Shown here piece after piece: positions 103 to 25,726 of a stretch of DNA of 27,398 bases; position 1 is the stretch's first letter; each line of letters starts with the position of its first letter. The notes below the pieces were generated by a model that did no database searches, was not told the origin of the DNA, and saw nothing but the letters and a program-made list of their open reading frames with translations. The position numbers and the translations under genes are program-made. The DNA comes from a virus, in the IMG/VR virus record IMGVR_UViG_3300033150_001517, positions 1-27,398 of that record; one strand, written 5' to 3'.

Positions 103-662
103 GTTTTTTCAGAACCCAACTTGAAGATTGGTTGAAAACGATTGATGTTAAAGCTAACCGGGTTTTGGATATCGGTGGCGGGGCTAATCCAGTAAAAGGA
201 AGGACTAGGAGTTGGAAAGTCAAGGAATACATGATACTTGATAATGAGGCCGAAAGAATGAGAGTAAAGCCTGATCTAACTGGCGATATGAATAAACACA
301 CCGCCTATCATAATGTTTGGCCAGCATGGGATGTAATTTTTATGCTAGAAGTTATGGAATATATCTACATGCCATACATTGCCTTGGTGAACGTTTTTCT
401 TATGTTGGCCCCAAATGGCATTGCCTATATTTCCTTTCCTTTTGTTTACCCGTGGCATGAACCCAAGGAGATTGATTATTTAAGATATACCAGTCAAGGA
501 GTAAAAAAACTCTTAGAAGTGGCTGGTTTTTCAAAGTGGAATATAAAGCCAAGAATAGATAAGTCTGGCTTACTTGAGCAGTTTTATCATGCTGATGGTA
601 TGCACCCGGCAAAGAGAGAAAGACATGATGTTACCGGTTGGCTAGTGGAGGCTAAAAAATGA
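99..662 (+). CDS. Class I SAM-dependent methyltransferase
   Basis: The 187-residue protein has the Rossmann-type SAM-binding motif I (VLDIGGGANP, about residues 22-31), a motif-IV-like strand (DVIFMLEVMEYI, about 78-89) and a C-terminal strand with HEPKEIDYLRYT followed by a helix ending EVAGF. That pattern is typical of Methyltransf_11/23 enzymes that modify sugars, lipids or small molecules. An SD (GGAGG, 87-91) lies seven bases before the ATG. The gene ends in ATGA, shared with the sulfotransferase start, so translation is probably coupled. It opens an eight-gene modification cassette. The substrate cannot be read; a sugar hydroxyl or carboxyl is plausible given the glycosyltransferase neighbours. 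There is no recognisable nucleic-acid-binding domain, so a DNA methylase is unlikely. Confidence 0.85.
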   Translation: MSFFRTQLEDWLKTIDVKANRVLDIGGGANPVKGRTRSWKVKEYMILDNEAERMRVKPDLTGDMNKHTAYHNVWPAWDVIFMLEVMEYIYMPYIALVNVFLMLAPNGIAYISFPFVYPWHEPKEIDYLRYTSQGVKKLLEVAGFSKWNIKPRIDKSGLLEQFYHADGMHPAKRERHDVTGWLVEAKK

Positions 663-1330
663 AATTTGTTACCCTTTCAAGCCATCGTTCAGGTAGCAGT
701 CTTTTCCAGAGATTGCTAAACAGTCACCCTGACATTTTAGCAAGACAGGAGGATTTAAGAGATCAAGATAGGCACAGCCGTCAGGTAATGTTAGAGAGGC
801 TTGATGGTATTTATGCTAATGATGGGAAACATAAAGCGGTTGGTTTTAAGCTTCAGTATAGCCACGTTAGGCCGTGGATTTTAGATTACATAAAAAGAAA
901 AGATATTAAAGCAATTCATCTTATCAGGAAAAGTATGCTTGATACTGTTTTTTGGTATCGTGGCAATTATACCGGTAAGACAATTGGTGGTTTTGGCTCG
1001 CCACTTTTAGTTCCGGAGGGTTCAGAAATAGTGGCTAATATTGATAACGTGATTGCTTCTTTAAGGTGGATTAGAAAAGAGATTAAGAAATACGAAAAGA
1101 TAACCGACTTTAGGGTTTATTACGAAAGCTTCACCGCCGGCGGGATAAATGTTTCAAGGTTTGCTAACAATGATTTGAGGAAGAAATTGCTTAACTTTTT
1201 ATCTGTTGAAGATAGGGAGTTGACTACCGACCAGAAAAAGGCCCAAAGGAAACCATTAAAAGAGTTGGTGGTTAATTACGAAAAGATGCTGTCTGAAATT
1301 AAAAGAAGGGGGGTTAAAATTTATTTATGA
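659..1330 (+). CDS. PAPS-dependent sulfotransferase (Stf0/NodH-like)
   Basis: The 223-residue protein begins with a beta strand leading into SSHRSGSSLFQRLLNSHPDI (about residues 7-26), which matches the 5'-phosphosulfate-binding loop of sulfotransferases. A second signature, KAIHLIRKSMLDTVFWYRG (about 84-102), matches the 3'-phosphate-binding segment with its conserved Arg and nearby Ser/Thr. In the family these bind PAPS and transfer sulfate to a hydroxyl on a carbohydrate or small molecule. The length suits compact Stf0-type enzymes. The gene is coupled to both neighbours by ATGA overlaps, placing it inside a glycosyltransferase and methyltransferase operon, so a sulfated glycan is the likely product. 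The acceptor is unknown. I am confident of the fold and less so of the subfamily. Confidence 0.75.
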   Translation: MKFVTLSSHRSGSSLFQRLLNSHPDILARQEDLRDQDRHSRQVMLERLDGIYANDGKHKAVGFKLQYSHVRPWILDYIKRKDIKAIHLIRKSMLDTVFWYRGNYTGKTIGGFGSPLLVPEGSEIVANIDNVIASLRWIRKEIKKYEKITDFRVYYESFTAGGINVSRFANNDLRKKLLNFLSVEDRELTTDQKKAQRKPLKELVVNYEKMLSEIKRRGVKIYL

Positions 1331-1788
1331 AATGCGGCAAGTTAAAAATTGACTTGGGTTGCGGGCCTAATAAGCACGAGGATTATATCGGCCTTGATAT
1401 TCATGACTACTCACACCTTTACCCGGAAGGGGAGTTTATCCAATGGGATTTGGAGAAGGGGGCGTTGCCATTTTGTACTAATTCAGTCAAGTCTATTTGG
1501 TGTACCTCGGTTTTGGAGCATATCCATAACTTTATCCCCTTAATGAATGAGTGCTGGCGGGTTTTAAGACCGGGCGGGGATATGTATATTTTAGTACCAA
1601 AGGCTGGCGGTGAGGGGAGCTTTAAAGACCCTACCCACTGCCGCTTTTTTTTGAATAAAACTTTTGATTATTTTACTAAGAGTGTTAGGCAGGAGAACTA
1701 TGGTATTAAACCGTGGGAGCTTGTTACTAATAGGATGTGGAAGGGCGGACAAGGAACGATTGAAGTAGTAATGAAACCAGTAAAATGA
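1327..1788 (+). CDS. Class I SAM-dependent methyltransferase (Methyltransf_11-like)
   Basis: The short protein (153 residues) shows motif I at the N-terminus (LKIDLGCGPNKHEDYIGLDI, about 6-25, with the acidic LDI strand end), a typical SVLEHI segment (about 61-66) and LRPGGDMYILVP (about 80-91). This is the compact type often found in glycan clusters, where it O-methylates sugars. It overlaps the sulfotransferase and the following GT2 gene by ATGA. The C-terminal part (about 95-150) is rich in aromatic residues and has no motif I recognise. The acceptor is unknown. The first SAM-binding strand starts almost at residue 6, so there is no separate N-terminal domain. Confidence 0.85.
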   Translation: MKCGKLKIDLGCGPNKHEDYIGLDIHDYSHLYPEGEFIQWDLEKGALPFCTNSVKSIWCTSVLEHIHNFIPLMNECWRVLRPGGDMYILVPKAGGEGSFKDPTHCRFFLNKTFDYFTKSVRQENYGIKPWELVTNRMWKGGQGTIEVVMKPVK

Positions 1789-2666
1789 AAATATCAATCT
1801 TAACCACCATTACCAATCCAGATGAAAGGCAGGATAAGTGGCGTGAGGCGTTAACTTGTTATAAAGAATTTGCTGATGAGGTTGTTGTGGTTAATGGCGG
1901 GGATGACAAGGGCGACTTGTTTTTATTAAAGGACGAACCGGATTATTTTACTCATGTTGAAAGAATAAAAGTTGTTCATTTACCCTGGCCCTACGAATGG
2001 AATTGGATCGAACTTCCAAAGCACTTAAACGCCGGATTAGAACAATGCACCGGCGATTGGGTTATTAAGCTAGACATCGATCAGTTTATCCATGAGAAAG
2101 ATTTTAGGACTTTAAGAGCGAAACTGAGAACGTGCCCTAGGGACTGCGACGTGGCCACCTTCCAGAAAATGAGTATGACCTACGGTAAGAAATATTATCA
2201 GAAGGGAGGCCAGCCGATTGCATTTAGGAGAAGGGATTATATTAAATTTGGGCAAAATATAGAAAAGGAAACTGATTTATGCTTCCCTATCGATATAAGA
2301 GTTTTCAGAGATGAGATTTACGGGGAGGCTATGATAGATAATTATTTATTACCAGTCGGTGAAACACCTTTGAAATCTTTTAAGACTGGCATTTCCTATT
2401 GGAATTATGATTACTTCTTCAAGACAAAAGAATTTACCAAGAAAGAGTTTTTTAGATTTAGCCGTGCTTACCATCGATACTTTAAAAAGTGGACATTTGG
2501 TCGGACCGAAAGAAAAGCCTTTGATGTATTTTTAAAGATGATGAAGGGCCGCCACGACCGAGCGCCCTACACCTATGAACTTAAAGACCACCCGAAGCAC
2601 ATCCGGGAAGCAGTTAGGAATTTAGCAAAAGATCAGTTTGGATTAAGCGCTTGGGGGCTTTTATGA
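1785..2666 (+). CDS. Glycosyltransferase family 2-like (GT-A fold)
   Basis: The 293-residue protein opens with a GT-A nucleotide-binding strand (KISILTTITN) and continues with a strand ending VVVVNGG (about 33-38). It has a metal-binding DxD-type motif in VIKLDIDQF (D97 and D99). The intervening LPKHLNAGLEQCTGDW is a familiar GT2 segment, where the acceptor-proximal helix precedes the DxD strand. The family transfers a sugar from a nucleotide-sugar donor with metal help in the cytoplasm. There are no transmembrane helices, so it is soluble or peripheral. ATGA overlaps join it to the methyltransferase before it and the fused methyltransferase after it. Donor and acceptor cannot be determined. 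Confidence 0.75.
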   Translation: MKISILTTITNPDERQDKWREALTCYKEFADEVVVVNGGDDKGDLFLLKDEPDYFTHVERIKVVHLPWPYEWNWIELPKHLNAGLEQCTGDWVIKLDIDQFIHEKDFRTLRAKLRTCPRDCDVATFQKMSMTYGKKYYQKGGQPIAFRRRDYIKFGQNIEKETDLCFPIDIRVFRDEIYGEAMIDNYLLPVGETPLKSFKTGISYWNYDYFFKTKEFTKKEFFRFSRAYHRYFKKWTFGRTERKAFDVFLKMMKGRHDRAPYTYELKDHPKHIREAVRNLAKDQFGLSAWGLL

Positions 2667-3682
2667 AAATATATAATCTTTTTAAGAAAAAGGGGAAGCA
2701 TTGTTTTCTTTATCCATTACCGGATAAAAGATTGGCTTTAAAGATTTTTAATGCCTATCCGCTTAATAACTGGGAAAACCTGTCCGGCTTCCGGTGGGGT
2801 GATCCGCCTGCAGGTGATAACCCTGATATGAGTGTTCCTTTAATTGACGCCACTAAAATTCAAAATATCGCTTGGATGCATGGTTTAGCACCGCGGGTTT
2901 ATGGGATTGTTAAGGTGAGGATTGGCAACCAGAAGTATTGGGCGCAAGAGGTAGAGTTGGTTGAAGGTGAATTTGCCGAGAATAAACACGAGGTGTTTTA
3001 CGCTACCTATAAAAAGGTTAAAGATTTGGGGTTGGTTTATGGATTTGAAAGTGAAAAAGACGATGTTTCGGCTAAGGATGTTATTGGTGGAAAATTAGTT
3101 GACTTTAACACTTTTCATTTTACTAAAGACCATCTTGGGAAGGTCAAGAAGGCCTATATTGAAAAGGCTCGCTATGGCAAAATTTATTATCATAATGTGC
3201 CGGAATGGGGATTAGTTAACTCACCGAGGAAAAACAAAGATAGAGTTAAATATATGAAACTCGATGAAATTGACTTTAAGGGAAAATCCGTTTTGGATTT
3301 GGGGTGTGCTGGCGGCTACTTCTGCCGGTATGTAAAAGATAGAGGGGCGGGTTATGTGCGGGGGGTGGATTTTGAAGATCCAGTTTTTGCCGCCTTCTTG
3401 GTTTCTAATGAGTTAATGTATTGGGATATTGATTTTTACAACAAAGACATTTGTAATTACCAGTCGACAATGAAATTTGACATTGTTTTCTTTTTATCAA
3501 TGAATTATCACATTGGCATTCCTAGTTGGCTGGCCGGGGTGACGAAAAAGATTTGTATTTTTGAAGATAACTCAAAAGAGAGGAACGCAAAGAAAACATT
3601 GACAAAAATGTTTAAAGAAGTTAAATTAGTGGGTAAGGCAAGGGATCACGGCATGAAACCGATCTACCATTGCCGGCACTAG
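2663..3682 (+). CDS. Kinase-like N-terminal domain fused to SAM methyltransferase
   Basis: I place the start at the ATG at 2663, which overlaps the preceding stop as ATGA like the other cassette genes; a TTG 12 bases upstream is less likely. The C-terminal half (from about residue 205) is a class I methyltransferase, with motif I SVLDLGCAGGYF (about 209-220) and an acidic strand end GVDFEDP (about 234-240). The N-terminal 170 residues resemble a reduced protein-kinase fold: a VAIK-like ALKIFN (K27), a hinge-like AQEVELVEGE (about 94-103), and a DFG-like GKLVDFNTF (D147). Where kinases carry the HxD catalytic loop this protein has LVYGF (about 124-128), so that domain would be inactive. The methyltransferase call is strong; the kinase relation is a by-eye inference. 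It may bind a nucleotide or a partner and present the acceptor. Confidence 0.7.
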   Translation: MKIYNLFKKKGKHCFLYPLPDKRLALKIFNAYPLNNWENLSGFRWGDPPAGDNPDMSVPLIDATKIQNIAWMHGLAPRVYGIVKVRIGNQKYWAQEVELVEGEFAENKHEVFYATYKKVKDLGLVYGFESEKDDVSAKDVIGGKLVDFNTFHFTKDHLGKVKKAYIEKARYGKIYYHNVPEWGLVNSPRKNKDRVKYMKLDEIDFKGKSVLDLGCAGGYFCRYVKDRGAGYVRGVDFEDPVFAAFLVSNELMYWDIDFYNKDICNYQSTMKFDIVFFLSMNYHIGIPSWLAGVTKKICIFEDNSKERNAKKTLTKMFKEVKLVGKARDHGMKPIYHCRH

Positions 3683-3691
3683 GCTACCCAA

Positions 3692-5260
3692 ATGAAGATC
3701 TTAATTCTAACCGATAAAAACGGTTCTGCCATTGATATTCTCAGCCAGCATATTAAGCGGCATAACCCCCACCTTGATATTAGTATTCAATCTTTTCACC
3801 CCAAACGCCCTGATATTGACCAGCTTGAAAAAGCTCCAAAGCTTTGGGACGAGGCGGATTTGGTTCATGTTGCTTATTGGAAGTCTGGTGAGAAGTTTAA
3901 AGAGCTTTACCCCGATAAGTTTAAAAGCAAAAGAAAAATCCTCTGTCACTATAATCCCTATGATGTTGATAAGAAGAACTGGCTTAAGGACTATAAAAAG
4001 GTAGTGGTTGGCAATGAAACAATCCAAGCCAAAATCCCTTACGCCAAGCTAATCCCTTATTGTATTGATCTTGAGTATTGGGAGTATAACCCAAAATATA
4101 CTGAAGAAAAGGTGGTCAATATGGTGGTGGCAAGGATTGAGAGTAAAAAGGGAGTTGTGCCGGTGGCGAAAGTTTGTAAAGAGCTGGGTTATGGGTTTGT
4201 TTTGGTTGGCCGGATTTCAAAGATGGATTATTTTCGGCAAATTATGGAGGCCAACCCAGACACTATCTTTAAAGAAAACATTGGCGTTGACGAGCTTAAA
4301 GAAACTTATTACCAATCAGCGATCCACGTTTGTAATTCGGTTGATAATTTCGAAAGCGGTACATTGCCAATTCTGGAAGCGATGGCCTGCGGCGTACCGG
4401 TGTTAACCAGAGTCGTGGGCCACGTTCCGGAATTGTTCAATGGTGACAATATGATGGTTAGGGAAGAAGAGCCGGAAAATGAAGAAGAGCTTAAGGCTAA
4501 ACTTCAGGAGCTAATGGAAAATAGGCCGTTGAGAGAAAAGCTACGGGATCGGGCTTGGCAGACAGTTAAGAATAGGCCAGCCTGGAAATACGCAAGGCAA
4601 TTTTCCTCGCTCTATTATGATATTAGAAGTAAAAAACCGTTGGTATCAATAATTACCCCGACATTTGACAAGCCTGACGTTTTAATAAAAAACCTTGCCA
4701 AGTCAGCCACTCAGGATTACCCAAATTATGAGATCGTTGTTGTTGACTCTGGCAACTTGAGTAGTAAGCCAGTTGTTGACGCATTTAGAAAGAGGATTGA
4801 TGTGCCGATAAAATACATTAGATTTGAAAACAAGGGTGAATATACTCTGGCTAAAGCGAGGAATTTGGCGGCGGTTGAGGCACAGGGTAAATACTTGGTT
4901 TTTGATGATGAGCGAATGGGAATGGAACCCAATGCGGTTTCTGTTTTTGTGGCCGCCATGGAAGATAAAGAAAAAACTTGGCTGTTTGGGATTAAAGATG
5001 ATTTTGAAAAAGGTTTTGTTGAAAATTTTAGTTGTGTTAAAAGGGAGGAATTTATGTTGTATGGTATGTTTAACGAGAGGATTGATGCTTATGGCGGTAT
5101 GACCCAAGAGGTTAGGACGAGGTTTGAAAAGAATGGTTTTGTTTTTGAGATGATCAATGAAGCAAGAGCCTATCGGATTGCTGGTTCAAAAAACAAATGG
5201 AAAAAGCGCAAGGAAATAATTAGGAGTAAATACAATATATGGAAGATGTACTATGACTAA
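3692..5260 (+). CDS. Bifunctional glycosyltransferase, GT4 (GT-B) fused to GT2 (GT-A)
   Basis: The 522-residue protein joins two glycosyltransferase folds. Residues 1 to about 310 look like a GT4-type GT-B enzyme: an N-terminal strand KILILTDKNG, a linker to the second Rossmann half (MVVARIESKKGV, about 144-155), and the donor-site segment NFESGTLPILEAMACGVPVL (about 219-238) with the E-x7-E spacing (E221, E229). Residues 316 to about 500 look like GT2: PLVSIITPTF, then EIVVVDSGN, and a DxD-type acidic cluster in YLVFDDE (D405, D406). Two sequential sugar transfers by one polypeptide are therefore plausible. It begins ten bases after the previous stop and overlaps the next gene by eight bases. 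The substrates are unknown. Confidence 0.8.
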   Translation: MKILILTDKNGSAIDILSQHIKRHNPHLDISIQSFHPKRPDIDQLEKAPKLWDEADLVHVAYWKSGEKFKELYPDKFKSKRKILCHYNPYDVDKKNWLKDYKKVVVGNETIQAKIPYAKLIPYCIDLEYWEYNPKYTEEKVVNMVVARIESKKGVVPVAKVCKELGYGFVLVGRISKMDYFRQIMEANPDTIFKENIGVDELKETYYQSAIHVCNSVDNFESGTLPILEAMACGVPVLTRVVGHVPELFNGDNMMVREEEPENEEELKAKLQELMENRPLREKLRDRAWQTVKNRPAWKYARQFSSLYYDIRSKKPLVSIITPTFDKPDVLIKNLAKSATQDYPNYEIVVVDSGNLSSKPVVDAFRKRIDVPIKYIRFENKGEYTLAKARNLAAVEAQGKYLVFDDERMGMEPNAVSVFVAAMEDKEKTWLFGIKDDFEKGFVENFSCVKREEFMLYGMFNERIDAYGGMTQEVRTRFEKNGFVFEMINEARAYRIAGSKNKWKKRKEIIRSKYNIWKMYYD

Positions 5261-6272
5261 GAAGTTTAAGGTTATTACTTATCCGTGGCATACTCCACAC
5301 CAATTTAATTTGGCCAAATTGCCTTTTATTGGCGAATACCACTTTTTAATTAATCCTTATCGCTATTGGAGCTACGACGCAAGACCATTTCCAAAAAAAG
5401 CCAAAATGGTTACCCACTATGAGCCGGGTTATTATGATTTTGCCATTCTCCACATTGACCAACAGGCGATTTGGGATCCAGAACTTTCTCAAAAGCATGA
5501 TTGGGCTAGGTTGGGCAAGGGCAGGCTTTATTACGAAGCCAATCAAACCATTGGGGATATTCCCAAGATTGTGATTAATCACATGACTCCATTTCACGAT
5601 CACTTAGAAACGGATCAAATTATTGACATTGTGAAAAGATTAACCAAAGGCAACTATATGGTTGTTAATTCTTATGAGGCGGCTAAACAATGGGGGTGGG
5701 GTAAAACGATTACCCATGGTCTTGATCCAAACGATTGGTGGGATTTACCCAAAGAACCAAGGTGTATAACAGTAATGAGCCGGGGGGGTATGGATCGGGC
5801 CTATCGGCGGATTTTTGTTGAGAATGTGGCCAGAAGGCTCAAAGAAATGGGTGTACCGTTTTACTGGGTTTTGTATGATAAAAAGTGCGACTCGTTTGAT
5901 GATTACCGGGAGTTTTTGGGCGGGAGCTTAGTTTTTTTCTTTGGTGGTTGGCAGTCGCCCAGACCAAGGTCAAGAACTGAAGCAATGCTGTCTGGGTGTT
6001 GTGTAGTTACCACGCCGTACCAAGACGCTGATACTTTTATTGAGGACGGTAAAAATGGTTTTCTTACCAGCCGGTTTAAAATCAAAGACCCCAGAGTGAT
6101 GGACAATCCTGATCGAACAGCTGAACTTATCAGGATGCTGGTTTTGGAAAAACCCGATCTGGCTATTAAAGTTGGACAAGCGGGTAAAAAAACTGCCAAA
6201 AAACTGTTTAACTTTAAAGTTTTTGCTAAACAATGGGAGGATTATTTAAAAGAGGTGGGGATATGGAAATGA
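5253..6272 (+). CDS. Glycosyltransferase, GT-B fold (GT4-like)
   Basis: The 339-residue protein has a clear GT-B donor-binding segment, RPRSRTEAMLSGCCVVTTPY followed by DADTFIEDGKNGFL (about residues 237-271). This corresponds to the conserved acidic residue and small-residue turn that hold the nucleotide-sugar in GT4-type enzymes. A strand-helix unit before it (CITVMSRGG, about 171-179) marks the start of the C-terminal Rossmann half. The N-terminal half is divergent and aromatic-rich, with several histidines (HHDH-like segments near residues 110-120). It overlaps the bifunctional glycosyltransferase by eight bases and the next gene by ATGA. Donor and acceptor are unknown. Confidence 0.7.
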   Translation: MTKKFKVITYPWHTPHQFNLAKLPFIGEYHFLINPYRYWSYDARPFPKKAKMVTHYEPGYYDFAILHIDQQAIWDPELSQKHDWARLGKGRLYYEANQTIGDIPKIVINHMTPFHDHLETDQIIDIVKRLTKGNYMVVNSYEAAKQWGWGKTITHGLDPNDWWDLPKEPRCITVMSRGGMDRAYRRIFVENVARRLKEMGVPFYWVLYDKKCDSFDDYREFLGGSLVFFFGGWQSPRPRSRTEAMLSGCCVVTTPYQDADTFIEDGKNGFLTSRFKIKDPRVMDNPDRTAELIRMLVLEKPDLAIKVGQAGKKTAKKLFNFKVFAKQWEDYLKEVGIWK

Positions 6273-7132
6273 AGATTGGCTTTGTCACCATGGAAAAAGT
6301 CAGCAACCGCCGGTTAAACTCGGTCGGGACTTCCCGGATTAGAGCAAGGTGGTTGATAAATTATTGGCCAGAGGCTGAGGAATGGCAGATTGGCGGGAAG
6401 TATGATGTGCTGATTTTTCAAAAGGCGTGGTTTGAAATGCTGGTAGAGCAGTTTAAGGGAATTAAGATTTTTGATATTGCTGATCCGGAATGGCTGGATA
6501 CTCCCAAGCCGTTTTTCAAGATTATGTCAGCTTGCGACGCGGTGACTGCTTCAACAAAAGCCCTTGCCGATTATGTGAGTAAGTTTTTGTCTATTCCCGT
6601 TGTTCATGTTCCAGATCGAGTTGACTTGGCTGAGCACGAGCAATACAAGGACAAGCGATATAGCAAGGGCGAAGCTAAAAACTGTGTTTGGTTTGGTTAC
6701 TCCCATAACTTCCACTACGTTGAAAAAACCCTTAAGCACTTAATGAAACTTAACTTACAATTAACGGTGATTGCTAATAAGTCAATGACAACTGTTGGTG
6801 ACTATGCCAGTTTGAGGATTAAGAATGTTGGTTACAATTACCGGACAGTTCATGATGAGATAATCAAGCACGACATTTGCTTGCTTCCCTCTCCAACAGA
6901 TCAGGATTTTAAAGGAAGGTTTAAATCAAACAACAAAGACCTAACGGCAATGGCTTTGGGAATGCCGATTGCCAGATTACCGGAGGATTTACACCGCTTG
7001 ATGAACCCGGTGGCCAGAGAAAAGGAAGGAAGAGCCGGTCGCAAAGAAGTTGAGGAAAAGTGGGATGTACGATTAAGCGTCAAGCAATATCAGGAATTGA
7101 TTGATGATCTTAAAAGTAGAAAGAAAAAATAA
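6269..7132 (+). CDS. Glycosyltransferase-like protein, GT-B C-terminal half recognisable
   Basis: I choose the ATG at 6269 because it overlaps the previous stop as ATGA and sits behind GAGGTGGGG (6252-6260). ATGs at 6263 and 6233 are alternatives that would add up to 12 residues. The 287-residue product begins with a Rossmann strand (KIGFVTMEK). Its second half contains NCVWFGYSHN, LQLTVIANKS and a helix HDICLLPSPT, which are strand-helix units of GT-B enzymes. The segment KSNNKDLTAMALGMPIARLP matches the donor-site helix and turn. It is the last cassette gene, and a non-coding gap follows. It is more divergent than its neighbours, so the GT assignment is moderate. Confidence 0.6.
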   Translation: MKIGFVTMEKVSNRRLNSVGTSRIRARWLINYWPEAEEWQIGGKYDVLIFQKAWFEMLVEQFKGIKIFDIADPEWLDTPKPFFKIMSACDAVTASTKALADYVSKFLSIPVVHVPDRVDLAEHEQYKDKRYSKGEAKNCVWFGYSHNFHYVEKTLKHLMKLNLQLTVIANKSMTTVGDYASLRIKNVGYNYRTVHDEIIKHDICLLPSPTDQDFKGRFKSNNKDLTAMALGMPIARLPEDLHRLMNPVAREKEGRAGRKEVEEKWDVRLSVKQYQELIDDLKSRKKK

Positions 7133-9096: not shown

Positions 9097-11571
9097 ATGG
9101 CAGATAATAAATCTTACGATATGGTGGGGCCGGTCTTTGAGTTTGCGCAACCACCGGAGAAAAAGTCCACCGAATATCTAACCGCAGACAAGGGATGGGT
9201 TTATTCGGCAATAACTCTTATTGCCAGAGAAACTTCACAAGTTAATCTTCGTCTTTACAAAAAGAAAAGAGTTTATAATCGCCGCAAAAGAGCCTATGAT
9301 ATTGAAGTTGAAGAAGTTACCGAGCATGAGGCTCTGTCTGTTCTTTATCACTGCAACGACTTCATGACCATGGGCCAGTTGATTGAGATTACCCAAACAT
9401 ATTTAGATTTAGCTGGTGAAGCTCCGTGGGCAATTTTAAGAGTTAATGGTCAACCTTCAGAGCTTTGGCCCTTAAGGCCGGATTGGCTTGATGTCAAGCC
9501 GTCCAAGACGAAATACATTGACCACTATGTTTACCACCCCGGTGGCGGATTTAAGAAGGTAGTTATCCCACCCGAAGATTTAATTATGTTTAAGTATTTT
9601 AATCCGGTAAGGGCTTACCGAGGTAAGGGGGCGGTTCAGGCTTCTTCAATGGCAATTGATATTGATGACTTTTCAAACGAATATAACCGAACATTCTTTT
9701 TCAATGCCGCCCTTCCTTCAATCTTTTTCACTACCGATAAGAGAATTGGCAAAAACGAAATTGAGCGTTTAATGCATATGTGGCGTTCAAAATTTGAAGG
9801 TCGGAAAAACGCCCACAAGGTGGCCTTTCTTGGCAAGGGGCTAACCCCTCATGAGATTGGTGGCAAGCACCGGGAGCTTGATTTCATTGAAAGTAAAAAA
9901 TACATCCGGGACGAGATTTTAGCCGCCTTTCATGTTTCTAAAGCCAACCTCGGTATTGTTGAGGATGTTAACCGGGCCAACCAAGAAGCTTCTGACGCTC
10001 GTTTTAAAGCCAAAGTCATTAAACCAAGGCTTATCTCTCTTTGTTATTACCTTAATGAGTTTTATTTGCGGAATTGGCCCAAGGAAGATTTGTTTTTTAA
10101 TTTTGACGATCCAGTTCCCAAAGATGTTGAACTTAACCTAAAGGTTTATGAGAACGGATTAAAGTATGGTTGGTTGACGATCAACGAGGTTAGGGAGAAA
10201 GAAAATTATCCCCCGGTTGAGGGCGGCAATCAAGTTTATTTGCCGTTTAATCTTCAGCCAGTTGGCTCAGTAATGGAGGGTATAAGGGGGTTGTTTGGTA
10301 AGAAGAAGGATAAACAATCAGGGGTAATTACTTTGAAAGCGAAAAGGAAATCTGCTCAAGACAAGATTAAAGAAAAAATGGTTATGCCGATACCGCCAAG
10401 ACGCCTTCGGGAATTAAGAAAAGAGAAAACTAAAAAGAAGATCTATCACGACTTGGTTAAGCTGGTGGTTAATGTGATGAAGCTGTCAGAGGAACAGGCC
10501 GCTAAAACAAAGTCAACCTCAAAGATTAAGAAATATCTTGCTGATAATTCCACGAGGGAAGCCTATTGGAAGGCCATGGTGGCTAAGACTGACGCTCAAG
10601 AGCAAAAGATGAGGCAGGTGATGACTGGCTTATGGGAGGAGCAAAGGAACGAAATTTACCGCCGGATTGAAAATGCCGCCCGGCCTAAATCATTAAAGAA
10701 GTTTGCTAAAAGGGATATTCCCCAAATGCTTTATGTTTTAAGCGAAGAAAACCGGCGTTGGTTTGGAGTGATGGCAATGCTGATTAAAGACATTGTGGTT
10801 GAAAAAGGACAAGAAACATTTGATTTGCTTGGAATGCCGAGAGATCTTGATTTGACCACGGCTCGAGCCGCTTCGTTCCTTCGGGAAAAGGGAGTTAAGT
10901 TTATCGGTTCGGTCAATGAAACTACCCGGGAGAGGCTAAGGAACTCGTTGGCTGAGGGAGTGGAAAAGAATGAGGGTATTCCGGAGATGAAAAAACGGGT
11001 GGAGCAAATTTACGCCTCGGTTGTCAAAAACAAAGGTGAACAGGTGGCCAGAACAGAAGTAATCAGGGCTACCAACTTTGCGGTTAATGAGGCTTATCGG
11101 CAGTCAGAAATTGTGACTGCTAAAGAATGGCTAACGGCTTATGATGAGCGGGTTTGCCCATTTTGTAATGAGATGAATGGCAAGGTGGTTGATGTGAGCA
11201 GTAATTACTTTAAACAGGGAGATAAAATGGTGGTTGACGGCCAACAGCTTGAGTTTGGGTATGAGAATGTCGCTCACCCGCCGCTACATCCCGGTTGCCG
11301 GTGTACCTTAATCCCGGTAATAGGTAAGCGTTCGGCTCAGAGTATTGCGAAGGAAAAGATTAAAGACACCATTGATGAGTTATCTAAAAAATTTGAAGAT
11401 AAAGAAGCAGAGCTAAAAGATATTAAAGAAAGTTTAAAAAAGGAGCGGATAAAAAACAAGAAGAAAGCTCTTAAAGAAGCTAAAAAGGAATTGGAAAAGG
11501 AGCAGAAAGAAGCCCTTAAAGATTTGAAAAAAGCGAGGGCAAAGGCTAGGGAGCTTCTTTACAATGAGTAA
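9097..11571 (+). CDS. Portal protein fused to MuF-type minor head protein
   Basis: The 824-residue protein is about twice a normal HK97-type portal. Residues 1 to about 400 match that family: GWVYSAITLIARETSQV near the N-terminus, a wing and stem region, and the clip-helix region DARFKAKVIKPRL with NFDDPVP near residue 345. Residues 480 to about 745 match phage Mu gpF-like minor head proteins: ARTEVIRATNFAVNEAY (about 650), DERVCPFCNEMNGKVVD (about 682-698) and HPPLHPGCRCTLIPV (about 726-740), with the CxxC and CRC cysteines. A lysine- and glutamate-rich coiled coil follows (about 750-820). The portal ring is the DNA entry vertex and MuF proteins lie inside it. The SD before 9097 is weak. Confidence 0.9.
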   Translation: MADNKSYDMVGPVFEFAQPPEKKSTEYLTADKGWVYSAITLIARETSQVNLRLYKKKRVYNRRKRAYDIEVEEVTEHEALSVLYHCNDFMTMGQLIEITQTYLDLAGEAPWAILRVNGQPSELWPLRPDWLDVKPSKTKYIDHYVYHPGGGFKKVVIPPEDLIMFKYFNPVRAYRGKGAVQASSMAIDIDDFSNEYNRTFFFNAALPSIFFTTDKRIGKNEIERLMHMWRSKFEGRKNAHKVAFLGKGLTPHEIGGKHRELDFIESKKYIRDEILAAFHVSKANLGIVEDVNRANQEASDARFKAKVIKPRLISLCYYLNEFYLRNWPKEDLFFNFDDPVPKDVELNLKVYENGLKYGWLTINEVREKENYPPVEGGNQVYLPFNLQPVGSVMEGIRGLFGKKKDKQSGVITLKAKRKSAQDKIKEKMVMPIPPRRLRELRKEKTKKKIYHDLVKLVVNVMKLSEEQAAKTKSTSKIKKYLADNSTREAYWKAMVAKTDAQEQKMRQVMTGLWEEQRNEIYRRIENAARPKSLKKFAKRDIPQMLYVLSEENRRWFGVMAMLIKDIVVEKGQETFDLLGMPRDLDLTTARAASFLREKGVKFIGSVNETTRERLRNSLAEGVEKNEGIPEMKKRVEQIYASVVKNKGEQVARTEVIRATNFAVNEAYRQSEIVTAKEWLTAYDERVCPFCNEMNGKVVDVSSNYFKQGDKMVVDGQQLEFGYENVAHPPLHPGCRCTLIPVIGKRSAQSIAKEKIKDTIDELSKKFEDKEAELKDIKESLKKERIKNKKKALKEAKKELEKEQKEALKDLKKARAKARELLYNE

Positions 11572-12532
11572 AAATGCCGCAGATGTTAAAAAAGAGCTTG
11601 ATAAATTCCTTGGTGATGATGAGCGGTTTTTAGATATTGTTTACGGCCTTAAAAAGCTAATTGGCGAGGCTAAAGCAACGGCTGATAAACAAGATCGGCT
11701 CGCTAAAATCATTAAAGAGGCTAGTGAGTCTAGTGGGACAAAACTGTCAAAACTGATTAAGCTGATTGATGGGTTGAAAGTTGAAATTCCGGACTTTGAG
11801 GTTAAATTCCCCCGCCAGTTAAAAACAATAATTGCCAACCCACCCAAATATCCAAAAGAGATTAAGATCAAGAACTTCCCCAAGTACCCCAAAGAAGTCA
11901 GGGTTAAGAAACCAAAGTGGTACAAGAGGCTTGATTTGAAACCGTTGGCCACGGTTATTGAAGGGCTTGTTAAAAAGACTTTTAATGTTTATGTTACCAA
12001 TCAAGACCCCAAAGATCCGATTTCCGTCAGGTTAAGCAACGGCCGTTGGTTTTACAATGCGATTGCCGAGGTAATTGCCGGTGGCAGTTCCGGTGAAGTT
12101 AAGCTTTTAAATGCCGCCGCCAGTATTATTAATCCAGCCACTGAAGATAAGCAAGACGACATTATCACCAAACTCACTACTCCTACGGGAATAGAGGGTT
12201 CTCCGGTTACCGTAGGGACGACAGCGGTTGAGCTAACTTTTACCGGCACGACTAGGGTTATCTCAATCAAGGCTGACTCTGGCAATACCGGCAAGATTTG
12301 GTTTGGTCCGGCTTCGGTTGACAATTCCGGGAACAATGCTTATGGAGATGACTCTGGCAATACCGGCAAGATTTGGTTTGGTCCGGCTTCGGTTGACAAT
12401 TCCGGGAACAATGCTTATGGAGAGTTGACCGCTGATAGTGCGGTTGAGATAGAACTTAATGACGCTTCGGCGGCTCTTTATGTTGTTTCTGATACTGCCT
12501 CACAGAAAGTTTACAAGGCGGCTCTAACATGA
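11564..12532 (+). CDS. Head decoration or fibre-like protein with duplicated C-terminal segment
   Basis: The 322-residue protein overlaps the portal stop by eight bases. Residues 1 to about 70 are helical and probably coiled. About 80-125 is a basic, proline-rich linker with KYPKE-type repeats. About 150-322 is beta-rich. The C-terminal part (VELTFTGTTRVISIKADSGN through the end) resembles a small beta domain that recurs in phage head and fibre proteins, although I cannot name the family. A perfect 75-bp tandem duplication repeats 25 residues beginning DSGNTGKIWF. The place between portal and protease suggests a virion surface or head fibre part. That function is inferred. Confidence 0.6.
   Translation: MSKNAADVKKELDKFLGDDERFLDIVYGLKKLIGEAKATADKQDRLAKIIKEASESSGTKLSKLIKLIDGLKVEIPDFEVKFPRQLKTIIANPPKYPKEIKIKNFPKYPKEVRVKKPKWYKRLDLKPLATVIEGLVKKTFNVYVTNQDPKDPISVRLSNGRWFYNAIAEVIAGGSSGEVKLLNAAASIINPATEDKQDDIITKLTTPTGIEGSPVTVGTTAVELTFTGTTRVISIKADSGNTGKIWFGPASVDNSGNNAYGDDSGNTGKIWFGPASVDNSGNNAYGELTADSAVEIELNDASAALYVVSDTASQKVYKAALT
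12274..12423 (+). repeat. Perfect 75-bp tandem duplication inside a gene
   Basis: Bases 12274-12348 and 12349-12423 are identical and adjacent. The unit is 75 bases, so the frame is kept and 25 residues (from DSGNTGKIWF to NNAYGD) are repeated. No synonymous differences separate the copies, so the event is either very recent or an assembly error. A single copy would restore a normal-looking beta domain. Confidence 0.95.
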
Positions 12533-13608
12533 CAAAACTAAGATACACATCACCAGGAGTGGGGTTTTTAGACACCCGCTATGTTAACGCAACGGGCGAT
12601 ACAATGACTGGTAACCTTACAATGCCCGCAGAGTCATTTATCGGCCCAAGCTCAACAACTGGAATTTATTTCAAAGGCGGCAACATTGGCATTGGCACGA
12701 CAAGCCCGGGACAAAAATTTCAAGTAGATGGGAAGGTGGTTATCAATAGTGGGACAAATGTTGCCCAAAACTATCGTGATTTGTATATAGGGGGGTTTGG
12801 GGGGTGGGCAACAAACGAGGCCCATTCTATCAATTTTGTTTACAATACGGCCGCCAGTCCTTCAATTGTTAGTTCTATTTCTTCAATTTGGGATGGCACT
12901 TGGGCGAATTTGAGCTTTGTTAATGATATTAGCTCAACTACTCCAGTTTTGTTTCTTAGAGGAAATGGGCGGGCTGGTATTGGCACAACGAGTCCAGACG
13001 CAAAACTTCAGGTTGTCGGCGACACAATGTTTGGGGACAATGGAAGCAATTACGCTTCTTTTGCTTCTGACGGCGAATTAACCCTTACGGGCACAGCCAG
13101 AGTAACCAGAGATTTATGGATTGATGCGGCAGGGATTAAAGCCCCCGGAGCTAAGCCCGCTACTGAAGTATCTTTCGGCACATTGGAAGTATCTGCTTGG
13201 GAATTTAGCGACGAGGGCGTGGAAGCCAATCAAGAAAGTGTTAGTTGGCGGATTGCTATCCCTTATGATATGGACAGGAACGAGGGGGTAGTTTTGAGGG
13301 TTGGCTGGAGTTCTGCCTCTCCTGGCAACTGTAAATGGCAATTAAAATACCGCTGGTTTAGCGAAGATGAGGATTTGACGCAGGACGGGGAAGAAACCTT
13401 AACCGCAGTGGACGCCGCTTCTACCACCGCCAACGGGTTGGTAGTTACCACTATTACAGGAATAAACGCCCCTAGTGCTACCGATGCTACCATTATGTTT
13501 AAACTGACAAGGCTTTCGGCTGACGCAGAGGATACAATTTCTGACACAGTAGAACTACATGGAGTTTGTTTTAACTACACCAGCGATAAATTAGGCGAGG
13601 CATTGTAA
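12529..13608 (+). CDS. Fibre-like structural protein (phage fibre repeats)
   Basis: The 359-residue protein starts in an ATGA overlap. Near the N-terminus it has RYVNATGDTMTGNLTMP (about 17-33), the GDTMTGxL motif of many tail fibres. It has two copies of the GIGTTSP fibre repeat (GNIGIGTTSPGQKFQVDG, about 50-67, and RAGIGTTSPDAKLQVVG, about 148-164). The C-terminal 170 residues form a beta-rich domain (from about KPATEVSFGTLEVSAWEF) that may bind a ligand or trimerise. Its position in the head module, far from the tail-tip genes, makes a head fibre or neck whisker as likely as a tail fibre. The fibre call rests on the repeats. Confidence 0.7.
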   Translation: MTKLRYTSPGVGFLDTRYVNATGDTMTGNLTMPAESFIGPSSTTGIYFKGGNIGIGTTSPGQKFQVDGKVVINSGTNVAQNYRDLYIGGFGGWATNEAHSINFVYNTAASPSIVSSISSIWDGTWANLSFVNDISSTTPVLFLRGNGRAGIGTTSPDAKLQVVGDTMFGDNGSNYASFASDGELTLTGTARVTRDLWIDAAGIKAPGAKPATEVSFGTLEVSAWEFSDEGVEANQESVSWRIAIPYDMDRNEGVVLRVGWSSASPGNCKWQLKYRWFSEDEDLTQDGEETLTAVDAASTTANGLVVTTITGINAPSATDATIMFKLTRLSADAEDTISDTVELHGVCFNYTSDKLGEAL

Positions 13609-13623
13609 TAAGGGAGGTGAAAC

Positions 13624-13815
13624 ATGACAACAGCAATTAAAACAGATTTATCAAAACTATCAAGGAAAACCAAAATTAAGAAGGTAGAATTAACCAAAGC
13701 AGAGCTTAAATTGATAAGCCAAGTTTTGTTTAACAGCCGGTGGAGTGGGCAGGAGTGGCAACAGACGATCACGCCGTTGATAAACAAAATCGCGAAGATA
13801 ATAGATAATCGGTAA
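13624..13815 (+). CDS. Small basic protein, function unknown
   Basis: This 63-residue protein follows an excellent SD (GGGAGGTGA, 13612-13620) at the right spacing, so it is probably well translated. It is lysine-rich and looks all-helical (KAELKLISQVLFNSRWSGQE then WQQTITPLINKIAKIIDNR). There are no cysteines, membrane segments or motifs I recognise. It lies two bases before the zinc-ribbon gene and probably shares its message. It could be a scaffold-like or regulatory peptide, but nothing in the sequence decides this. Confidence 0.7.
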   Translation: MTTAIKTDLSKLSRKTKIKKVELTKAELKLISQVLFNSRWSGQEWQQTITPLINKIAKIIDNR

Positions 13816-13816
13816 A

Positions 13817-13990
13817 ATGAGAGATTTAACCTGTCCAATTTGTGGCTACAAGTTCGGGAAGAATGTAGTCATTCGCTACGGTGAGTTTAAATGCCCGAAG
13901 TGTAAATATATTGCCGTTTTTGATTATGAGCGTCAGGACTTGACAAGGGGTGCTAGAATTGCTAATGTTAATAATGTAACAACTAAATAA
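13817..13990 (+). CDS. Small zinc-ribbon protein (Com-like)
   Basis: A 57-residue frame starts two bases after the preceding stop and ends with TAA at 13988-13990. It has two CPxC knuckles, CPICG (residues 6-10) and CPKCK (26-30), a spacing that fits a four-cysteine zinc ribbon. A basic segment (ERQDLTRGARIANVNN) follows. Size, position of the knuckles and N-terminal MRDLTC recall phage Mu Com, which binds RNA and activates translation of mom, although sequence identity by eye is limited. It sits directly before a stretch of RNA hairpins leading into the protease gene. A DNA- or RNA-binding regulator is plausible. Confidence 0.7.
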   Translation: MRDLTCPICGYKFGKNVVIRYGEFKCPKCKYIAVFDYERQDLTRGARIANVNNVTTK

Positions 13991-13997
13991 GAGCGCC

Positions 13998-14020
13998 TTG
14001 AGCGCCATAAAGAGGCTCAA
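13998..14020 (+). other. Small inverted repeat after the zinc-ribbon gene
   Basis: TTGAGC (13998-14003) pairs with GCTCAA (14015-14020) over an 11-base loop. The direct repeat GAGCGCC occurs at 13991-13997 and 14000-14006. It lies five bases before the larger terminator-like hairpin. It may be part of the same structured RNA or a protein-binding site. Confidence 0.4.
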
Positions 14021-14024
14021 ATAG

Positions 14025-14079
14025 AAGCCCATTGTTCGTTGGTTAGATGAAGTCTAACTGGCGGATGATGGGTTTTTTT
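14025..14079 (+). terminator. Long intrinsic-terminator-like hairpin
   Basis: The arm at 14025-14047 pairs along all 23 positions (counting G-T wobbles) with 14053-14075, around a five-base loop TGAAG. A run of seven T residues occupies 14073-14079. The central segment GTTAGA/TCTAAC and the outer CCCAT/ATGGG are Watson-Crick. This is the best intrinsic terminator in the window. It would end transcripts from the portal and fibre genes and separate them from the protease and capsid genes. Confidence 0.8.
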
Positions 14080-14088
14080 GTTGCTTGC

Positions 14089-14137
14089 GATGAGGGGAGG
14101 AAGGGTAGCCGAATTTCCATCCTTCTCTCATCGGAGG
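14089..14137 (+). promoter_or_regulatory. Two-state RNA leader that can hide or expose the protease SD
   Basis: The segment 14089-14100 can pair with 14121-14132 over 12 positions (two G-T), leaving the SD GGAGG (14133-14137) free six bases before the start at 14144. In the alternative, CCTTC (14121-14125) pairs with GGAGG itself over a seven-base loop and hides the SD. The same CCTTC is used in both folds, so they exclude each other, which is the logic of a translational switch. The pairing is visible in the sequence; the regulatory role is inference. Confidence 0.5.
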
Positions 14138-14143
14138 CAATAA

Positions 14144-15418
14144 ATGCCAGAAGTTACCGAAAACTATATCCGTATTCCAAATCCAAAACACAAAGAAACT
14201 GGATGTAAAAAAATTCGGACAATAACTGTTTCAGCCTCTAAGGGGATCAAGGCCCTTTATTGTATTGAACACAAAAAAATTAAAACCTATCTCTTTGATA
14301 GGAAGAAATGGAATTTAAGCGAAGCGAAAAAATGGGTTAAGGAACATTCGAAAGGAATAAATATGAGTGATAAACTTCATGTTAAAGCTGAAATCAAGAA
14401 ACGAGAAAAGAAGATTGTTGCTGTGGCCTCAGAGGAAGTTGAGGATAGAGAAGGCGAGGTGCTTTCAATCGATGGGTGGGATTTAAAAAACTTTAAGAAA
14501 AACCCGATACTTCTTTGGTATCACAATCTTCGGCCTGAAAGATCTCTCCCTATTGGTAAAGCCAAGAATATTAAAATTCAGAAAGTCGGTCAAAGGAAGA
14601 AATTAACCTTCGAACCAGTATTTGAAACTATCACCGAATTTGGCCGGACAATTAAAAAATTTGTCGAAGATGGATTGCTTAATTCGTTTAGTGTTGGTTT
14701 TCAGCCAATTGAGAAAGAGGGTAATAAATATCTCAGCCAAGAGCTTTTAGAAATTTCATTAGTACCAGTGGCGGCTCTTCCGTCAGCTCAAATTATTGAA
14801 AGGATGAAGATTGATAAAAATGTTGCCAAGGCGCTCACAGGTGATAAGAAAGCCATTAAAGCAATACTTAAAGACGGTGATAAAGAGATTGATGGCGGCA
14901 AACTTCACGAGCCAAGCAAAGAAGAGGAGATTGTGTACGCCACCAGAGAGGATATTAAAGCCCTTGATGAAAAGATAGAGAAGTTGTTTAAGGTAGTTAA
15001 AAGCACCAGACGAGCCACCCAAAAAGTAGTTAGCGGCAAATATAACAAAATGAGCCGGAATGAAATTTTATCTTTAGCGCTCAAGGCAACTGCCAAGGCA
15101 GTTGATGAGGCTTTAAAAAGAGTGAGGGAAAACAAGGCTAAATGGACAAGGGAGTTTATCAATAATTTACCCGATGCCGCTTTTGCCTATATTGAGCCGG
15201 GTGGAGAAAAAGACGAAAGTGGCAAGACTAAGCCACGGTCGTTAAGGCATTTTCCCCACCACGGAACGAATGTTCGGTCTGGTTCTGAAAACAACACGGT
15301 GGACAAACCTCATTTGAGAAACGCTTTGGCCCGTGCGCCCCAGAGTCCATTTGGGCCCAAGGCATTGCCGCACTTAAAGAAACACGCTAGAGCATTAAAT
15401 ATAGGAGATAACGATTAG
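14144..15418 (+). CDS. HK97-type prohead protease (peptidase S78) with extra N- and C-terminal domains
   Basis: The 424-residue protein has the S78 protease core at about residues 75-225. The catalytic His lies in LLWYHNLRP (H127), the catalytic Ser in GLLNSFSVGF (S183), and the acidic segment is SQELLEISLVPVAALPSA (about 198-215). It cleaves the scaffold part of the capsid protein during head maturation. The first 70 residues are a separate basic module, and an internal ATG at 14363 with its own SD would give the core alone. The C-terminal 80 residues contain DAAFAYIEPGG, PRSLRHFPHH and HLRNALARAPQSPFG, a block I recognise from other phage head proteins. It probably acts inside the prohead. 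Confidence 0.9.
   Translation: MPEVTENYIRIPNPKHKETGCKKIRTITVSASKGIKALYCIEHKKIKTYLFDRKKWNLSEAKKWVKEHSKGINMSDKLHVKAEIKKREKKIVAVASEEVEDREGEVLSIDGWDLKNFKKNPILLWYHNLRPERSLPIGKAKNIKIQKVGQRKKLTFEPVFETITEFGRTIKKFVEDGLLNSFSVGFQPIEKEGNKYLSQELLEISLVPVAALPSAQIIERMKIDKNVAKALTGDKKAIKAILKDGDKEIDGGKLHEPSKEEEIVYATREDIKALDEKIEKLFKVVKSTRRATQKVVSGKYNKMSRNEILSLALKATAKAVDEALKRVRENKAKWTREFINNLPDAAFAYIEPGGEKDESGKTKPRSLRHFPHHGTNVRSGSENNTVDKPHLRNALARAPQSPFGPKALPHLKKHARALNIGDND
14352..14365 (+). promoter_or_regulatory. Internal ribosome binding site and start within the protease gene
   Basis: AAGGA (14352-14356) lies six bases before an in-frame ATG at 14363. The shorter product would start MSDKLHVKAE at residue 74, just before the protease core, and have 351 residues. 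The precise domain boundary makes a second translation start plausible. Confidence 0.45.
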
Positions 15419-15437
15419 AAAGGGGGTGAAAAACAAC

Positions 15438-16715
15438 ATGAAAAAGAAAGATGAAGTAAAAGAACTCTTAGAAAAAGTGGATGGCTTAGCTGAAGAAATC
15501 AAAGCCCTCAAAGAGGACGGCGATGGAGATGATAGTGGTGAGGATGTCAAGGTGGCGGCAGACTTGTCTGAAGCTATTAAAAACCTTGGCGACAGAGTGG
15601 TTGATACCATTGAAGAAACTATCGCCAGCAGGCTTCCCACAGACAAAGAGGATAAGTTGAAAAAAGATTTGTTTTCTACCGAACGAGGTTTGCCGGGAGT
15701 TGAGCTTCCAAAGCTTGAATTGGTCGGTAAATGGCAGAAAGCATATCGGACTGGAACAAAAGAGGAACGAAAAGAGGCTGGCGATAACATAATCGTGTCG
15801 TTCCTTAAGTCATGGGTGATGGAAGACCGTGATCCTGAAGCGGCTAAAGTTTTTAAGGCGCTTAACGAGGGGACTTCAGCAGATGGTGGGTACTTAGTAC
15901 CAGCTCCATTGGCGGCTGAAGTTTGGCGAGTCCTTCCGGATTACGCCGTCATGCGACGAATTGCTCGAACCATCCCAATGACTTCTCAAACCTTGAAGGT
16001 AAATAGTTTGTCGGCACGGCCGTATGCGTACTGGGTATCCGAGTATGCTAAAAAGACTACTACCTCAGCAGAGTTTGATCAAAAGACTCTTACTTGTAAC
16101 AAGTTAGTTTGTTTGCTTCCTGTTACCCACGAACTTTTGGCTGATGCTAATATCAACCTTGCTCAGTTTGTCGTTGAATTGTTTGCCGAAGCAATTGCGA
16201 CTGAAGAAGACAAGGCGTTCTTTACCGGCAGTGGTACTGGGCGGCCAAAGGGTATTACTCAGGAAACCTTAACTAGCTTCTCCGCTGGAGCAAGTTTGAA
16301 CTTCGATGACATCATTAAGTTGATTTACAGTGTTCCCCAATCAGTGCGTCGATCAAGGAACTGTGCTTTTGTCGGAAACCAAACTGCGATGGAGTTGCTA
16401 CGCAAGGTTAAGGACGGCAACAACAACTACATCTGGAGGGATCAGGGGATGTTCAGGGGTGAAGTCCAGCGTGGTCCGGGAGCGCCTGACGCCATTGTGT
16501 ATGGCTACGGCATCCACGAGCAGAACGATCTTGGTAGGGAAATTTATTTCGGTGACTGGAAATACTACTTAATCGGCGATAGGCAACAGATTACTGTTTC
16601 CAAGACCGATGAAGGTGGTGACGCTTGGCGCCGAGATGCTACCGAGTTCAAGGCAGTTGAACGAGTAGATGGTCGGGTCGTGATGACCGCACCGTTTGCT
16701 AAGCTGACCTACTAA
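15438..16715 (+). CDS. Major capsid protein, HK97 fold
   Basis: The ATG at 15438 is chosen because AAAGGGGGTGA (15419-15429) precedes it at eight bases; a GTG at 15426 lies within the SD. The 425-residue protein has an N-terminal acidic coiled coil (about 1-60, the delta or scaffold region). The HK97 fold begins near residue 135 with ALNEGTSADGGYLVP. Further hallmarks are VTHELLADANINLAQFV, EEDKAFFTGSGTGRPKGI and near the end IYFGDWKYYLIGDRQQITV, followed by RRDATEFKAVERVDGRVV. The protease next to it would remove the N-terminal region, with the cut somewhere around residues 90-130. It is the shell of the virion and probably the most abundant product. Confidence 0.97.
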   Translation: MKKKDEVKELLEKVDGLAEEIKALKEDGDGDDSGEDVKVAADLSEAIKNLGDRVVDTIEETIASRLPTDKEDKLKKDLFSTERGLPGVELPKLELVGKWQKAYRTGTKEERKEAGDNIIVSFLKSWVMEDRDPEAAKVFKALNEGTSADGGYLVPAPLAAEVWRVLPDYAVMRRIARTIPMTSQTLKVNSLSARPYAYWVSEYAKKTTTSAEFDQKTLTCNKLVCLLPVTHELLADANINLAQFVVELFAEAIATEEDKAFFTGSGTGRPKGITQETLTSFSAGASLNFDDIIKLIYSVPQSVRRSRNCAFVGNQTAMELLRKVKDGNNNYIWRDQGMFRGEVQRGPGAPDAIVYGYGIHEQNDLGREIYFGDWKYYLIGDRQQITVSKTDEGGDAWRRDATEFKAVERVDGRVVMTAPFAKLTY

Positions 16716-25048: not shown

Positions 25049-25726
25049 ATGCCAATTTCTATTAAAAACAATCCCAGAGTTTCACAAGACCAGCTCTCAA
25101 AAATGATAAAAGAGGGCAAAAAAGTTGATGCTATCTACTCGTTTTTTCCAATTGATAAGCATGACTGTGAATGCCGTGGGGAAGTTAATCATGTCAAAAC
25201 TCTTCTTTCGGGAATGAATGAAAAGCAACGCCATGATTACAAAAGAAAAATTGGCCATATTGTTTGCCCAAAATCAAAAAAAGCAGGTTTTAAACGCTAT
25301 CAAATTGTTTGTGCTAACTGCGGTGAAACTGTTGCTTTTGTATCCGCTAAAGATGCCCTCTTGACAGAGTGGTGTGATTTACATTACTATAATTATGCTA
25401 AGAGAATAACTCTTTTAAGAAAAGTAAAAGAGCCGGATATTTATCAACGAGGACCTAAAAAGGGCGAGCAAAAACTTGATAAAAACAAGAAGCCGGTTTT
25501 TAAAATAAAAGAGGAGAGAATACCAACTGGTCGGTGGTTTGGGTGCGCAACAGTTAACCTTTCACCCATCGACCAAAAGCTCGGTTTTGAATGTTTTTGC
25601 GGAAACGACACTAGAGATTTTAGAAGTTCGGCTACCCTTCCTCCCAATGAAATTCACGCCCGGTTAAGAAAGCGTGAATTTGGCAAGGCCTATTCAGGGT
25701 ATCTTGTCAGGGAGGTTAGGAAATAA
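25049..25726 (+). CDS. Cysteine-rich protein of unknown function, probable zinc binding
   Basis: The 225-residue protein has ten cysteines in pairs or isolated positions: CEC at 40-42, C73 in HIVCPKSK, CANC at 88-91, C109 in EWCDLHYYN (with H112), C166 in FGCATVN, and CFC at 182-184 in FECFCGNDTRDFR. The CANC and C109/H112 set could bind zinc, and the CEC/CFC pairs another metal. Helical basic stretches are common. I do not recognise the family. It lies between tail-tip and fibre genes, so it may be a virion or assembly protein, but a regulatory or enzyme role cannot be excluded. The last base overlaps the next start. Confidence 0.7.
   Translation: MPISIKNNPRVSQDQLSKMIKEGKKVDAIYSFFPIDKHDCECRGEVNHVKTLLSGMNEKQRHDYKRKIGHIVCPKSKKAGFKRYQIVCANCGETVAFVSAKDALLTEWCDLHYYNYAKRITLLRKVKEPDIYQRGPKKGEQKLDKNKKPVFKIKEERIPTGRWFGCATVNLSPIDQKLGFECFCGNDTRDFRSSATLPPNEIHARLRKREFGKAYSGYLVREVRK

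Follow-up and report, generated by a model that had tools for sequence, protein, structure and literature searches.

A virus gene for a small four-cysteine protein lies directly ahead of the prohead protease and major capsid genes, and this locus raises the question of what such a protein would do there. To our knowledge, the zinc-ribbon protein Com is known only as a translational activator of the DNA-modification gene of phage Mu, and a search of the available literature for Com before structural genes found nothing. We analyzed a 27.4-kb virus record (the whole stretch of DNA, hereafter the window) and a 99% identical sister contig of 38.6 kb, which is cut differently. We favor, at a probability of about 0.6, the reading that the region is a transcription attenuator, with Com-dependent antitermination of the protease-capsid genes. 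The features on which the argument depends are as follows.

9097, portal gene, first of the head-region order; two tail-fibre-like or unknown genes and then a 63-aa ORF lie between it and the zinc-ribbon gene
13817..13990, + strand, Com-like zinc-ribbon gene (ATG start, 57 aa, four cysteines)
13940..13968, + strand, predicted internal sigma70 promoter (TTGACA at 13940-13945, 17 nt, weak -10 TAATGT at 13963-13968)
13991..14006, + strand, predicted Com operator 1 (GAGCGCCTTGAGCGCC; hairpin GCGC[CUUGA]GCGC), an exact match to the in vitro selected (SELEX) motif
14012..14030, + strand, predicted operator 2 or antiterminator hairpin (GA-GGCU[CAAAUAGA]AGCC-C), 21 nt after operator 1
14027..14079, + strand, intrinsic terminator (about 22 pairs, GAA loop, T7 after the 14027-14073 hairpin)
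14077..14144, + strand, second hairpin (hp2), pairing the protease Shine-Dalgarno (SD) and start region
14133..14137, + strand, SD of the protease gene (GGAGG)
14144..15418, + strand, prohead protease gene, with protease profile matches; the predicted controlled gene
15426..16715, + strand, major capsid protein gene, directly after the protease and in the same direction

The zinc-ribbon protein and its relatives

The ORF at 14144-15418 matched head-maturation protease profiles (phrog_80, 1e-16; phrog_617, 5e-18) and, below that model's cut-off, the HK97 protease model (4e-6); the gene after it encodes an HK97-type capsid protein (PF05065, 8e-61). An N-terminal protease extension of ~74 aa (14144-14365; MPEVTENYIRIPNPKH...) is common to L140, L148 and L126 and is missing in L121. 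The zinc-ribbon stop codon and the protease gene are separated by 153 non-coding bases, and the RNA at 13985-14150 is predicted to fold into two long hairpins at -80.2 kcal/mol (shuffles, -45.5 +/- 4.2; z -8.35), a stability equalled by 0 of 200 shuffles. An earlier note on this DNA had described a 57-residue four-cysteine protein followed by hairpins reaching the protease start, and this description holds; it missed that the first long hairpin is a terminator, as well as a pair of small hairpins (13991-14030) that follow the stop codon and precede that terminator. An Rfam scan of the region from zinc ribbon to protease gave no known RNA family.

The protein itself reads MRDLTCPICGYKFGK...FKCPKCKY... 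and has a CxxC-x16-CxxC pattern (CPIC, CPKC), whose four cysteines are invariant in the zinc-ribbon alignments. Several residues typical of Com are absent from it, the Pfam Com family (PF10122) was not among its best Pfam matches, the gathering cut-off not being reached, and the zinc ribbon of the sister record gave no PF10122 match. Among 15 positional homologues, 9 matched PF10122 (E 0.01 or better) and 11 matched the PHROG for Com-type translational regulators; L126, L121, L149, L156, L143 and others scored above the PF10122 gathering cut-off. When the divergent subgroup that includes the window protein was compared with ten canonical Com proteins using hhalign, the probability was 96.4% (E 1.2e-9). 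Because the window protein falls below the Pfam cut-off and yet its subgroup profile matches canonical Com, we describe it, on profile evidence, as an apparent distant Com relative that would be Com-like in action, and do not claim formal Pfam membership. The Com-like zinc ribbon proposed in the earlier note is supported to this extent. The AlphaFold2 model made for the window protein had a pLDDT of 60.6 and was set aside.

A direct IMG/VR search with the window protein returned the sister (99%) as the only match, and a Com alignment of 15 rows proved too diverse to scan the collection with. The sister is uninformative for covariation, and relatives were therefore found by IMG/VR scans with the protease and capsid proteins (capsid identity 40-63%). 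The order zinc ribbon, operator, terminator and prohead protease was present in about 17 diverged IMG/VR relatives. The zinc ribbon is directly 5' of the protease in L121, L124, L126, L131, L136, L140, L143, L148, L152, L153, L154, L156, L092, L292, L315 and L317; it precedes an inserted gene in L149, and L268 is a more distant case. The earlier suggestion that such a regulator serves a structural gene was thus right in kind, with a Com-like regulator before the protease, but this placement is not unique to the window phage. In other phages, Com-type zinc ribbons were seen before tape-measure, Ig-domain/tail and, distantly, scaffold genes (L226, L251, L202, L207). Canonical Com matches with functional annotation in GenBank phages had Mom or methylase genes as neighbours, and a search of GenBank phages with the L126 protein gave no match.

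Candidate Com targets and the overlapping terminator

It has been reported that Com targets selected in vitro follow the pattern GAGNNCC-N2-3-GAGNNCC (Nowacka et al. 2019, PMC6483171) and that Com binds them as short hairpins closed by a C-G pair, the loop being C-N2-3-GA (PMC6483171). We found that GAGCGCC-TT-GAGCGCC (13991-14006) lies directly 3' of the zinc-ribbon stop codon and is the one occurrence of the motif on either strand of the window. In the 38.6-kb sister, the pattern with a 2-nt gap also occurred once, at the operator 1 site, and a reversed control pattern 0 times. As a positive control, the proven Mu site AUGC[CUGCGA]GCAU was recovered by the same hairpin search. The motif is found at the equivalent place in canonical Com-methylase loci, including an identical 16-mer in L254, and most canonical Com-methylase/Mom loci have Com-type hairpins about 100 nt after the Com start. 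Tandem Com-type hairpins, 22-23 nt apart and ~100-140 nt past the Com start, were observed in L254, L206, L223, L259, L270 and others. In nascent window RNA extending to 14033, both operator hairpins are predicted to form together.

A Com-type RNA target between the zinc ribbon and the structural gene had been anticipated, and the exact SELEX match agrees with this. The binding site had been placed at 14080-14150, whereas the predicted site is 13991-14030; the former was ruled out as a Com target, the window hp2 having no Com-type loop.

Similar elements recur among the relatives. A search of 90 nt around the stop codon gave Com-type hairpins in 7 of 16 loci, where shuffles predict 0.57, although two of these seven (L124, L156) span the ORF end and may be spurious. 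A narrower region in 18 loci held 7 Com-type hairpins against 0.72 expected, with other loop types at 0-2, and a GAGGC..GCC element was present in 10 of 16 loci (0.12 expected). The exact C-N2-3-GA loop is missing from the first hairpin in about half of the relatives. In the GGCN:NGCC hairpin, the position after GGC is occupied by U-A, A-U, C-G, G-C and G-U across loci. We consider it probable from these sequences that the window protein acts on its leader RNA at all, and infer that it binds the RNA at 13991-14030.

Within the part of the window that was scanned, the top intrinsic-terminator match is the one at 14027-14079, whose first 4 nt are common to operator 2. An upstream hairpin overlapping the terminator 5' arm was present in all 21 loci tested, and the summed upstream pairing with this arm was above all 300 shuffles; single-locus overlap scores were mostly non-significant alone (window p 0.047), so only the sum is significant. 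The loop of the overlapping hairpin has the form C...GA in 7 of 18 protease-group loci, where about 0.3 would be expected by base counts; these are the window, L136, L148, L152, L154, L292 and L317, among which L136/L148 and L152/L154 are near relatives. In L292, L317, L227, L269 and L204, the hairpin that overlaps the arm has the standard Com form. In L131, the hairpin is present and the U-tract absent. As predicted elements, the target motif, the terminator and the overlap between operator and terminator are conserved across diverged relatives, as is a TTGACA at the end of the zinc-ribbon gene.

Phage gene modules are commonly separated by terminators, and a terminator before the protease also occurs in L025 and L036, two distant relatives that lack Com. 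It is conceivable, then, that the terminator is an ordinary operon boundary closing the upstream unit and that the zinc ribbon has an unrelated role, but we regard this as very improbable: it leaves the exact SELEX motif, the overlap with the terminator and the conserved TTGACA upstream of the terminator unexplained.

Under the attenuator reading, polymerase would arrive from the upstream genes or initiate at the TTGACA promoter near the end of the com-like gene, and a short leader RNA with two Com-type target hairpins (13991-14006, 14012-14030) would be made. Without the protein, the 3' strand of operator 2 (AGCCC) would move into the terminator once the terminator 3' arm has been made. Uptake of this strand by the strong terminator would close 14027-14079, and transcription would consequently halt ahead of the protease and capsid genes. 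As the Com-like protein accumulates, it would bind the hairpins, hold the AGCCC strand and block the base of the terminator, so that polymerase could enter the protease-capsid genes. By this route the Com-like protein would probably time the switch-on of the capsid genes.

The sign of this effect, namely that binding prevents and does not promote termination, is our inference from the geometry of the overlap and from Mu. Binding to the leader is equally expected if the protein is a negative regulator that promotes termination or blocks read-through as late-gene feedback, and sequence alone is silent on the sign. Such feedback appears improbable, since in every locus tested the terminator and the bound form of the hairpin compete for one strand, and the sole characterised Com is an activator.

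Promoter motifs and the hairpin over the protease start

The predicted promoter of the window scored 9/12, which is not above shuffles, although its TTGACA is perfect. All 15 capsid-related loci carry TTGACA in the last 80 nt of the zinc-ribbon ORF, 32-71 nt before its end; over the 18 loci tested the count is 15, against 0.4 expected and at most 3 in any of 300 shuffles. Most capsid-related loci have a -10 at normal spacing, giving scores of 10-12/12. At the equivalent place in canonical Com-methylase loci, TTGACA was present in 0 of 22. The hexamer is read in different ORF frames, as L-T in the window and D-T in most loci, and this variation suggests that it has been kept as a DNA motif and not as protein sequence. 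Promoter activity at 13940-13968 may be supposed, with a weak -10. In L292 and L317, a promoter lies before the com-like gene instead.

Since no gene lies between the promoter-like TTGACA and the terminator, the two could also delimit a small RNA of ~100 nt (about 13975-14079) whose hairpins bind Com, such as a decoy titrating it, and the protease genes would then be expressed by simple leakage. We think this quite improbable: no promoter was seen between the terminator and the protease, the capsid genes would depend on leakage, and the arrangement remains beside the protease.

Relatives without the zinc ribbon offer a comparison. Of the 16 capsid relatives compared that have no adjacent zinc ribbon, L149 being left out, 13 carry a TTGACA-17-CATAAT-like promoter, mostly ~40 nt before the protease, and none of these 13 has a terminator before the protease. 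Examples are L123, L127, L129, L130, L134 and L147, all lacking Com, in which TTGACA-17-CATAAT lies about 40 nt upstream of the protease ATG. This placement implies a nearly leaderless protease mRNA in relatives without Com, as far as predicted promoters can indicate. On the capsid tree the promoter-only state has about two origins, and we give little weight to the mutual exclusion of Com and direct promoter because there are only about two independent switches.

Downstream of the terminator, hp2 takes both the SD (GGAGG, 14133-14137) and the A of the protease ATG into its stem. With diverged stems it is also found in L121, L092, L136, L148 and L140, about 6 of 18 loci overall. The 5' arm and loop (GAGGGGAGGAAGGGTAGCCG) are nearly identical between the window and L121; L121 keeps the hp2 sequence and has its SD outside it. 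SD sequestration was ruled out as a conserved principle, hp2 being in a minority and the L121 SD uncovered. The earlier note had looked to loss of the hairpins in relatives that keep the gene as evidence against a Com-like regulator. Since the operator and terminator arrangement is kept, this test mostly fails to refute such a regulator, and what is often missing is the SD hairpin.

The earlier note had also proposed control in the manner of Mu. In such a reading, the Com-like protein at the operator would refold the RNA, open hp2 and free the protease SD and start. Several observations are consistent with this: in the window, and probably in L092, the SD and start region are paired within hp2, the Com hairpin of L225 overlaps an SD-sequestering stem, and Mu Com is a translational activator (PMC6483171). 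However, an intact terminator of about 50 nt stands between the operator and hp2, and most relatives with operator and terminator lack hp2. We therefore consider translational activation unlikely as the main control, and transcriptional attenuation likelier because the conserved partner is the terminator and not the SD hairpin. The attenuator model leaves hp2 unexplained; in the window phage it may be a second, translational brake.

A further observation concerns hp2 itself. Positions 14095-14113 have a 19-nt exact reverse complement at 25627-25645 (-) (E 1.3e-5; kept in the 99% sister), which joins the hp2 5' arm and loop to a coding stretch of the gene at 25049-25726 and is not due to chance. 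Pairing between the two RNAs might open hp2, or the complement might be a fragment copied from one place to the other. In the L121/L122 contigs the hp2 copy stands alone, and the sister, being so similar, is uninformative; pairing in trans was not adopted.

Known systems and other features of the window

The locus resembles the com-mom system of Mu (PF10122, phrog_6417/13819) in having a small four-cysteine zinc ribbon directly upstream of the predicted target gene, an RNA hairpin with a C-N2-3-GA loop at the end of the regulator gene and an inhibitory RNA structure before the target gene. It differs in that the predicted target is the protease-capsid genes and not mom or another DNA-modification gene, there is no overlap between regulator and target genes, the inhibitory structure that is conserved is an intrinsic terminator, a TTGACA promoter motif lies in the tail of the regulator gene and the protein is below the Pfam cut-off. 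BglG, SacY and LicT are RNA-binding antiterminators that stabilise a leader hairpin overlapping an intrinsic terminator. The predicted hold of the window protein on a leader hairpin whose strand overlaps the terminator is of this kind, although protein fold and target sequence are unrelated, there is no PTS control and the gene is a phage gene. Similarly, lambda N with boxB combines a small phage protein, a short hairpin with a 5-nt loop and passage of polymerase beyond a terminator, as proposed here. N itself is an arginine-rich peptide whose modification of polymerase is processive and involves host Nus factors, unlike the zinc ribbon and locally overlapping terminator of the window.

A broader view, which we hold tentatively and at somewhat less than even odds, is that antitermination by Com-type zinc ribbons is widespread among phages: the proteins would bind leader hairpins incompatible with an intrinsic terminator and so time capsid and other structural genes, with Mu com-mom as a translational offshoot. 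If Com targets do overlap a terminator before the capsid genes in many phages, Com would have a general role in late-gene timing, the zinc ribbon would join the kinds of RNA-binding antiterminator, and many natural target hairpins would be at hand for studying how Com reads RNA. The predictions of the attenuator model are concrete at base level.

Other observations concern the rest of the window. The sister contig is 99% identical on both flanks of 12529-13677 and has no match over the tail-fibre-like gene there, which looks to have been swapped between the two phages. A perfect 75-bp tandem duplication (12274-12423) within the ORF at 11564-12532 is apparently single copy in the sister. By eye, 1-7132 includes glycosyltransferase-like, sulfotransferase-like and SAM-methyltransferase-like genes. 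Finally, a Candidatus Woesebacteria genome (L185, ~4001-4243) carries a short capsid-protein fragment, 53% identical and seemingly a remnant, a hint that this phage group may have hosts in candidate phyla.
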